NCBI GenBank assembly: GCA_016946835.1
Contig: JACVTC010000167.1
Span: 207,501-271,500, forward strand
DNA: 64,000 nt
DNA from: Neocallimastix lanati (nom. inval.)
Lineage: Eukaryota; Neocallimastigomycota; Neocallimastigomycetes; Neocallimastigales; Neocallimastigaceae
Direction of reading: 5' to 3'
Positions 28,769-31,856 of the stretch are shown here, piece by piece (position 1 is the first letter of the stretch; every line of letters begins with the position of its first letter). The notes beneath the pieces were generated by a model that had not been told where the DNA came from, did not search any database, and saw nothing but the letters and a program-made list of their open reading frames with translations. A program made the translations under genes and the position numbers.

Positions 28769-29469
28769 AATAATGTGAAAGAAATTAATTAATCCTTTGC
28801 AATCACATCAGTTTAAGATAATGCTAATACAACACTGAAGAATTACCAAATACTAAATAAAAACTATTTTTGTTATATCTTTATTTCATAAAACATTAAA
28901 TAAATAGTAGTAATTATCCTTCCTTTTTTTTTCAGGCTACTGAATAAATTTTAATAATTCTATTGATTTGAGGATGAGCTTTTTTCTGAACATCAAATTA
29001 TGTCATATGAAGAAATTACTTTTTACTGTTTTAAAAAATGATTATATTTTTATTATTTAAATTATATATATAAATATATATATATTTATATAATATATAT
29101 AATTTATTGTTAATATTATTATTAATAATATAAAAAGATAATTTCTTAATAGTTACCTATAAATTGAAATTCTATTATAATCTGTTATAAAATATAGACT
29201 TATTCTAGAAAATCTGAATTATTTATTTTTTAAATAACAATTTATTAATGAAGTATTGAATAAATAACAAAAAATCAACTTTCCTAAAATTTTAATAAAC
29301 AAAATTTATTTATTTATTTATTTATTTGATATTATTGATATTAATATATTATTTAAACAATAAATAAATAAAATATATTTAAAATAAGTATTTCTATTTT
29401 TATGTTTATTTTTTATAAAAAATTTTATATTTAAATTTTTAATTTCAAAATTTATATCCAATTTTCAAA
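27374..29469. other. Intergenic region
   Basis: About 2.1 kb. It has TA runs, a TCTGTCTGTTTG microrepeat near 28380-28396, and two long T tracts near 28647-28685 and 28739-28767 separated by a TA run. A less biased stretch lies near 28780-28850, but it shows no open frame and no RNA I recognise. Confidence 0.65.
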
Positions 29470-30165
29470 ATGAAAATTAAATTAAATAGTAAAATTGAGA
29501 AAAAAAAATAATTATATATAATGGCTATTTTTTTTTGTTATATAAATATATTCTAATAATTTAAAATATTTTAAAAAACAATTCTATTTTTTATGAATAT
29601 TTAAAATAAATTTCTTGAATATAGGGTAAAATAATAATCGTTTTTTTTAATGTTTTTACATTATAAATATATATATTATGTTTAAACTAATTATTTATTA
29701 AAAAATACAATTAATAAATAAATAAAAAGCTGGTCAAGTGTAGCTTTATGGAAATGGGCTGTAACTGATGAGGATGATGTTTGCGGTATATGTAGAAATC
29801 AATTTGATAGATGCTGCCCATCCTGTAAAATTCCAGGAGATGATTGTCCATTAGGTAGTAATATGCAGACTTTTTTAAAAAATAAAAAATATATATATTA
29901 TATGTAAATTTAAATAAATTAATAAATAACTTAACATAAAATATTGAATTAATTTATAAACTATAAAGTGTGGGGTCAATGTAGACATTGTTTTCATTTA
30001 CATTGTATGATAAAATGGCTTCAAACTGAATCAAGTAATCAAGCCTGTCCAATGGATAGAAGACCTTGGGTATATTTAACAGGAGATCCTAATACTGCAC
30101 AAAATTCACAAGATCAACAGGAAACTAATACTCAACATCAAGAACAACCATCTGAAGAACAATAA
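29470..30165 (+). CDS. APC11: Anaphase-promoting complex subunit 11 (RING-H2)
   Basis: Catalytic RING subunit of the APC/C ubiquitin ligase that drives mitotic exit. Exons: 29470-29488, 29625 (one base), 29730-29854 and 29969-30165; 113 aa. The spliced protein starts [16 protein letters not shown], in register with the conserved APC11 start (Met-Lys-Val/Ile, a tryptophan at position 8, then VA.W.W). The RING-H2 ligands follow in order: [40 protein letters not shown] and ACPMDRRPW. The usual final C-x2-C reads CPMD here, so the last cysteine is replaced by aspartate, unless this reflects an error. A Gln/Asn/Thr/Glu-rich tail of about 30 aa extends beyond the usual length. No other combination of AG and GT sites between exon 1 and 29730 restores frame without a stop. 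Confidence 0.92.
29625..29625 (+). other. APC11: Single-nucleotide exon (G) of APC11
   Basis: The sequence TATAG-G-GTAAAA holds an acceptor, one base and a donor. Exon 1 ends AAT-A and exon 3 starts C-TGG, so A+G+C gives serine before the conserved tryptophan. Direct joining of exon 1 to exon 3 is one base short and meets a stop four codons later (GTG TAG). Confidence 0.75.
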
Positions 30166-30963
30166 TAAAAGTCAAATCACTAAAAAAAAAAACTTTATTT
30201 TTTTTTTTTGAGATAATTAATATCTTACTAAAAATAATATATGAATAATATTAATGTTAAAATTATTATAATTAATTTCTTCATAAATATCTTAATAAGC
30301 ATTGTATATATATCAAAACAAAATAAACAAAATATTATAATTTAAACAAAATTTAATTGATTCATTACTATTTATATAATTTTATTATATATTTTATTTT
30401 TACTTTTTAATTGTATACATTATAAATTATATATTTGTAAATTATTTTATTTTTGCTCTAATTTTAAAAATAAAAATAAATAAAAAAAAAAATTAAAAAA
30501 AAACATATTATATTTATTTATTTATTTTAATGCATTAAAAAACCTTTTTTTTTTTCTCTTGAAAAAGTCTATATGGGGTATTAATTTTAAATAATGCATT
30601 ATGAATGAAATGAATTTTTTTTTTTTTTTTTTTTTTTTTAATTTTTAATTATTAGATATTTAATAATTTTGAAATATATATATATATATATTTTTTTTTT
30701 CTATTTTATAAATTATTAATATATAATAAATAAATTATATAATATTAAATCTATTATATTAAAATAAATTATTTTATATATTTGTAATTGAATATATAAA
30801 ATATTATTCTTATGTATAAATCGTATTCTTATTAACTAATTTATTTTATTAAATTAAGTTATATTTTCTAATTGAATATTCCTTTTTTAATTCTTTTAAC
30901 TTTTTATTTTTAATACTTTATTTTATTTATTTATTTATTTTATTTTTTAATTTAAAAAATTTA
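30166..30963. other. Intergenic region
   Basis: About 0.8 kb of AT-rich DNA after the APC11 stop with A/T tracts (30481-30503, 30617-30639) and a TA run near 30675-30690. No gene seen. Confidence 0.6.
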
Positions 30964-31838
30964 AATGCTTTTAATATCAGTTTGGTTGTTAAGAATTTTT
31001 AATTGACCCTTTAATTCATTTTTCTTTTGATATAAACGTTCATTCTCTTTTTCTACTTCAATAATTTGTTCACAGCTAATGAAGTATAATATATTGAACC
31101 CTTATCACCAATAGCAATTTTTAATTGATCAGCCATCTTCATTCTATTTTGGATTGATTAACTTGTTCAATTAAAATTTATTTGGTTTTATAAGGTGGTC
31201 TTAGCTTGGTTCATAGATTTCTTAAGATTATCTTCGTCATCCGTCATTTTCTTTATACGTTGATGAAGGAATTCATTTTCTTGTTTATAATTATTTAACT
31301 TCTTTTGAGTAGAATTCAAGTGATTTATAATATCAACTATGATCATCTTTCGAGTTAAGGACATAACAATTTCTTCTTCTAATTTAGCGATTTTTGAATC
31401 TTTTGCTTCCAAAGTTTGTTTATACATATTTTGATTTTGATTTTCTTCAAATTTTGATCTTATTTTTCTTCAAGCTCCTTTAACTGAAATATTTTACTGT
31501 TGTAATCAAGTTGGATTTGATCAATATTTGTTTGATATTCTTGAACTAATTCTACAAGATAACGATTTCTTTCCATAATTTGTTGCTGTTGTGATTGAGG
31601 AAGTGGTTGCTGTGGTGGTGGATTTGGTGGAGCTTGATTTCCTGAAGCATTTTTATATGGAAGGGTAAGACTAATTACAGAATATTGTAAGTTTGGTGAA
31701 TTATATGCAGAATTTGGAGGGGAATATGAAACTTTTGGACTACCAAAGTGATTAACTTTAATTTGTTGTTCAACGCCATTATTAAAACTATTAACACTAC
31801 TATGATTACTTAAATTACTTAAATTTCTTGAACGTTTA
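30964..31838 (-). pseudogene. Decayed coiled-coil protein gene, frameshifted
   Basis: Read on the minus strand, 31838 begins after a plausible acceptor (TTTTACAG) with KRSRNLSNLSNHSSVNSF. It goes on through a Pro/Gln-rich stretch (PPNPPPQQPLPQSQQQQ) to a coiled coil (MERNRYLVELVQEYQ, KIFQLKELEEK). A stop follows at 31461-31463, which a one-base slip in an A run would bypass. The coiled coil resumes in another frame (MYKQTLEAKDSKIAKLEEEI ... KKSMNQAKTTL, ending near 31188). At least two more shifts are needed to reach KENERLYQKKNELKGQL and the end IKSI near 30964. No GT-AG introns explain the breaks. The 5' exons are missing, and an LTR abuts the break. I do not recognise the parent gene. Homopolymer sequencing errors are an alternative for some of the shifts. 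Confidence 0.7.
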
Positions 31839-31856
31839 CTGTAAAAGGTTTGTTAT

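Follow-up and report, generated by a model that had tools for sequence, protein, structure and literature searches.

The exon A333 of Arabidopsis APC11, correctly given as a precedent in the preliminary description of the DNA analysed here, is a constitutive exon of one base, as established with mutated constructs (PMC4674806). One-base exons have been reported for very few nuclear genes. In plants, PMC8831610 describes two conserved clusters of them, in APC11 and in VPS55; it places the APC11 exon in early plants and gives GTRAGT as the donor following the VPS55 exon, the inclusion of which can be alternative. The VPS55 exon is also present in Zygnema, and none of 45 plant microexon clusters was found in Chlorophyta, according to PMC11096116; only one cluster, which is neither APC11 nor VPS55, is shared with Chlorella according to PMC8831610. 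A one-base exon in CYP621A of Fusarium is presented in PMC12940212 as the first for a fungal gene. Among the literature matches listed, which also include mitochondrial one-base exons, the nuclear ones are those of plants and of Fusarium CYP621A, and none from outside plants and algae belongs to APC11 or to VPS55.

The window, that is, the whole stretch of 64,000 nt that was analysed, comes from contig JACVTC010000167.1 of Neocallimastix lanati, whose genome comprises 199,045,447 bases in 762 contigs. The window is AT-rich (12.5 to 30.3 per cent GC in 4-kb steps) and fungal dockerin (CBM_10) modules are abundant, with all 150 scored candidates matching PF02013 (1440 candidates in all); an AT-rich genome with many such modules is what we take to be the mark of anaerobic fungi (Neocallimastigomycota).

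The plus strand of the window carries an APC11 gene that starts with an ATG at 29470. Exon 1 (29470–29488) encodes MKIKLN and the first base of codon 7, and is followed by intron 1 (29489–29624, 136 nt, GTAAAA...ATATAG). The putative one-base exon, G 29625, supplies the middle base of codon 7 (A/G/C, serine). After intron 2 (29626–29729, 104 nt, GTAAAA...AAAAAG), exon 3 (29730–29854) opens with the last base of this codon and encodes the conserved tryptophan and the first part of the RING; intron 3 (29855–29968, 114 nt) separates it from exon 4 (29969–30165), which ends with the stop codon at 30163–30165. The three junctions, AAT-A/GTAAAA, TATAG-G-GTAAAA and AAAAAG/C-TGG, lie exactly where the preliminary description had placed them, and the serine that it had predicted before the conserved tryptophan stands in a protein matching human APC11. 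Once joined, the four exons, G 29625 included, encode 113 amino acids identified as APC11 (Pfam zf-ANAPC11, E = 3e-32). The human chain 4ui9_B aligns with this product over residues 1–84 with 118.4 bits; the first 21 residues are aligned free of gaps, a segment that includes MKVKIKCWNGVALWLW of that chain and in which MKIKLN of exon 1 faces human MKVKIK.

The Arabidopsis exon A333 and the land-plant cluster to which it belongs share with this locus the gene, the position near the N-terminus, the two flanking GT–AG introns and the necessity for the frame. The plant exon differs in its base, which is A instead of G, and in its surroundings, the plant upstream part being 333 nt long whereas the introns here are much shorter. 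The plant APC11 protein has arginine at codon 7; the plant A is, for that reason, hardly the middle base of this codon, and its position may differ from that of the fungal G. The Fusarium CYP621A exon (PMC12940212) likewise lies in a fungal nuclear gene, has the context AG-G-GT and provides the middle base of a codon, but gene and lineage are unrelated and it is backed by RNA reads. There is also a likeness to the recursive splicing of long introns (cited in PMC4674806) in the stepwise removal at one point and the possible recreation of a donor; the differences are that one essential base would stay here in the mRNA, and that the interval measures just 241 nt.

If exon 1 is fused directly to exon 3, the message reads MKIKLNTGQV-stop, that is, a stop after ten codons, and insertion of G 29625 gives an open frame of the full 113 amino acids. 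All GT and AG choices between the ATG and the last base of exon 3 were enumerated, 30 nt being the shortest intron allowed. Four solutions have an open, in-frame message, one with two exons and three with three. The two-exon solution uses the acceptor GTGTAG, which ends at 29743 inside exon 3, and loses five residues, the conserved tryptophan among them. Two of the three-exon solutions include G 29625: with the acceptor at 29729 the conserved tryptophan is kept, which is true of this solution only, and with that at 29738 three residues are lost. The last combines an exon of 8 nt with an intron of 35 nt, and more residues are lost. The preliminary description had held that each other AG/GT pair fails, and this was too strong: the acceptor at 29743, three bases beyond the interval that it had considered, gives an open two-exon mRNA, and the enumeration leaves two further open three-exon solutions. 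Of the readings whose introns are all GT–AG, only that with the one-base exon yields full-length APC11. We estimate at roughly 0.88 the probability that APC11 is split in codon 7 by two ordinary GT–AG introns one base apart, with G 29625 as an exon.

The strength of the splice sites was measured with models built from donors and acceptors of kinase genes of the same genome. The kinase profile was derived from 12 of 22 seed loci, the other 10 being left out for stop codons, probably because they were read on the wrong strand. Among 46 exon pairs, 36 were kept, and 10, for which the best join was ahead by less than 9 bits, were left out; in the search for these reference introns, donors had to be GT or GC and acceptors AG, and reference sites were compared by leave-one-out scores. 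The 36 reference introns are 105 to 492 nt long, their commonest donor hexamer is GTAAAA (6/36) and they end in TAG (27), AAG (8) or CAG (1); some introns inferred in RBX1 and VPS55 of the same genome are shorter, at 72 to 98 nt. The acceptor before G 29625 scores 9.6, at least as high as 35 of the 36 reference acceptors, and the donor after it scores 10.9, at least as high as 31 of the 36 reference donors. The exon-3 acceptor AAAAAG scores 6.8 (at least equal to 22/36), and the exon-1 donor, in the context ATA/GTAAAA, falls below all 36 reference donors. The branch-point candidate CTAAT is not enriched near the reference acceptors (1/36), so its occurrences in introns 1 and 2 are not counted as evidence.

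When the interval was shuffled 5000 times, only 3 shuffles contained a one-base exon with both sites equally good. At a lenient threshold, corresponding to the weaker extreme of real sites, a one-base exon is found in 152 of 5000 shuffles, and an exon of any size of 1, 4 ... 31 nt in about 339. The bare motif AG-N-GT, without site scores, occurs in 169 of 5000; the argument therefore rests on the strength of the sites and not on the bare motif. On both strands of the window, AG-G-GT at 29625 is the only AG-N-GT attaining both scores, among 69 and 82 bare motifs on the two strands, of which 30 and 31 are above the lenient thresholds (a density of 0.11 per 241 nt of window).

The alternative that survives best is a plain two-exon join across one intron of 255 nt (29489–29743), implying an mRNA without TGGTCAAGTGTAGC after exon 1 and an APC11 that lacks five residues (MKIKLN-T-LWKW). 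This join is open, in frame and canonical, and its acceptor scores 6.0 (at least equal to 19/36), close to the 6.8 of AAAAAG. Against this, it removes or breaks the segment 29731–29745, whose translation, WSSVA, corresponds to WNGVA in human APC11; the human match falls by 15 bits, from 118.4 to 103.3, its start moving from human residue 1 to residue 12, and the strong AG-G-GT is left without explanation. We regard this join as improbable in place of the one-base exon, and the shorter form may occur as a minor isoform.

VPS55 was selected in advance for examination because, next to APC11, it is the gene in which plants conserve a one-base exon (PMC8831610). Two paralogues are present, L037 on C632 and L038 on C554, both on the minus strand, with exons chosen by eye under the guidance of the protein. 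Both have a candidate one-base exon C, in the context AG-C-GTAAGT, in the N-terminal region and at the same codon and phase (L037:2485). The last nucleotide of exon 1 is a first codon base (MARIPGVT+G in L037, MAKSQGIT+A in L038) and the exon that follows the C, 13 nt long (L037:2171–2183, with a matching place in L038), opens at a third codon base (T CTT AT. GGT TTA); omission of the C breaks the frame. Starting from this ATG in L038, no solution but that with the one-base exon is open; an upstream ATG allows one two-exon and three three-exon solutions, all without likeness to L037. Without site filter, 36 three-exon solutions are open in L037 and four in L038, and the layout of 25 nt, C and 13 nt is the only solution common to both. 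Among 3000 shuffles, 5 and 4 contain an equally good site, and any AG-N-GT appears in 17 and 27 per cent. The assembled protein of 139 amino acids is Vps55 (E = 3.2e-32), and it also needs the 13-nt exon and one of 6 nt (L037:1780–1785, AGAAAA / GGAAAA, with a matching place in L038). As in the plant gene, the one-base exon lies near the N-terminus in both paralogues, and the donor GTAAGT fits the plant GTRAGT. The presence of the 6-nt and 13-nt exons in both paralogues suggests that this genome routinely accommodates exons of very small size.

These paralogues bear on the two other alternatives for APC11. A single intron with non-standard ends, either GT–AA (29489–29728) or TA–AG (29490–29729), would produce the identical mRNA, AAT AGC TGG; the sequence is compatible with this, because the base of the exon is identical with the G adjoining both ends. 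With scores of −2.3 and −5.0, such ends rank beneath every site of a reference set in which donors were confined to GT or GC and acceptors to AG. In VPS55, moreover, the exon base is C, and the whole intron of 394 or 654 nt (GTA...TTAG or ATAG) cannot supply a C by a shift. We consider a shifted single intron improbable, marginally more so than the shorter two-exon form. Least probable of all, and very unlikely, is a base missing from the assembly, or lost, at the exon-3 acceptor, which would make the gene a plain join of two exons there: one base next to a run of A would suffice, but a second copy of the gene on contig C224, with 4 to 6 per cent mismatches in introns 1 and 2, carries the same AAAAAGCTGG, which makes a chance loss at the acceptor unlikely. 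The strong AG-G-GT would moreover be a coincidence, and VPS55 has the same layout twice.

This second copy (C224:1163600–1166000) belongs to a duplicate of positions 29034–31839 of the window, which a comparison with 30 kb of C224 resolves into three aligned pieces, 83 to 89 per cent identical. All splice sites are retained, including the exon-1 donor, ATATAG-G-GTAAAA and AAAAAG-C-TGG. Two premature stops are present, a TGA at the tryptophan before AVTDE and a TAA in exon 4, and the duplicate is a decaying copy; its agreement with the first gene was consequently dropped as a sign of selection. A long ATTT-type repeat lies upstream of it. A search of the genome by DNA for a spliced, intronless APC11 copy matched only the two intron-bearing loci. 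No relatives were confirmed in viral contigs (3 pattern matches) or in the collection of genome contigs (44 pattern matches).

The order of splicing at the one-base exon is suggested, like the splicing itself, by the arrangement of the sites. The two sites at AG-G-GT are too near each other to be bound simultaneously, and the two introns would for this reason probably be removed stepwise; stepwise removal is also argued for Arabidopsis APC11 (PMC4674806). Given a weak donor at exon 1 and a strong one after G, intron 2 might often leave first, which would fuse G to exon 3 (TATAG/GCTGG) and make intron 1 an ordinary intron. Removal of intron 1 first would also be workable, as the junction recreates a donor, TAG/GTAAAA, that scores 9.9 bits, at least as high as 22 of the 36 reference donors. 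Inclusion of G is predicted to be necessary for APC11, skipping being expected to give a null mRNA, and the choice between inclusion and skipping could in principle act as a switch.

The preliminary description had raised deep conservation or a striking recurrence as the two possible origins of the exon, an idea that gains weight because both VPS55 paralogues also have a predicted one-base exon. The recurrence, as predicted here, covers both genes that have a conserved one-base exon in plants. One-base exons in both genes of an anaerobic fungus would indicate either an ancient common descent or a hidden cause for the acquisition of such exons by these two genes. The exons of APC11 and VPS55, the shortest that can exist, may be survivals from the ancestor of plants and fungi rather than inventions of plants, kept for more than 1 billion years and missed by annotation; we view this tentatively, at somewhat below even odds. 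In favour of descent, both plant genes are predicted to be built in this way in the N. lanati genome and the VPS55 donor agrees with the plant consensus (PMC8831610). Against it stand the absence of the plant microexon clusters from Chlorophyta (PMC11096116), the sharing of only one other cluster with Chlorella and the early-plant dating of the APC11 exon (PMC8831610), and the different base. The arginine at plant codon 7 also argues that the codon position is hardly the same. If descent is true, the inability of annotation to find such exons would explain why they have escaped notice elsewhere. The case also cautions that, in many genomes, the models of genes for such proteins may contain errors at the N-terminus.

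One-base exons were sought in kinases, ubiquitin-conjugating enzymes, RBX1, APC11 and VPS55. As a control, 74 exon junctions, 49 of kinases and 25 of ubiquitin-conjugating enzymes (73 of them distinct, since L035 and L040 are the same gene), were each joined with and without a one-base exon, and the one-base exon was favoured at none of the 74. A one-base candidate is open at four of them and loses by at least 12 bits each time. One-base exons are not commonplace in the genome, with a loose upper bound of about 4 per cent of junctions.

RBX1, a relative of APC11, has five exons (L078:728–1602, contig C168), and its four junctions join without a one-base exon. An ordinary intron lies directly before the tryptophan codon equivalent to that following the APC11 one-base exon; an intron may thus have been present here from very early on, a point in favour of common descent. 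A one-base exon common to APC11 and RBX1 is ruled out, since RBX1 has a single ordinary intron at this place. One of the RBX1 acceptors is AAAAAG, as in APC11. A second RBX1-like locus, L005, lies on the minus strand of contig C468, and its C-terminal exon is near-identical.
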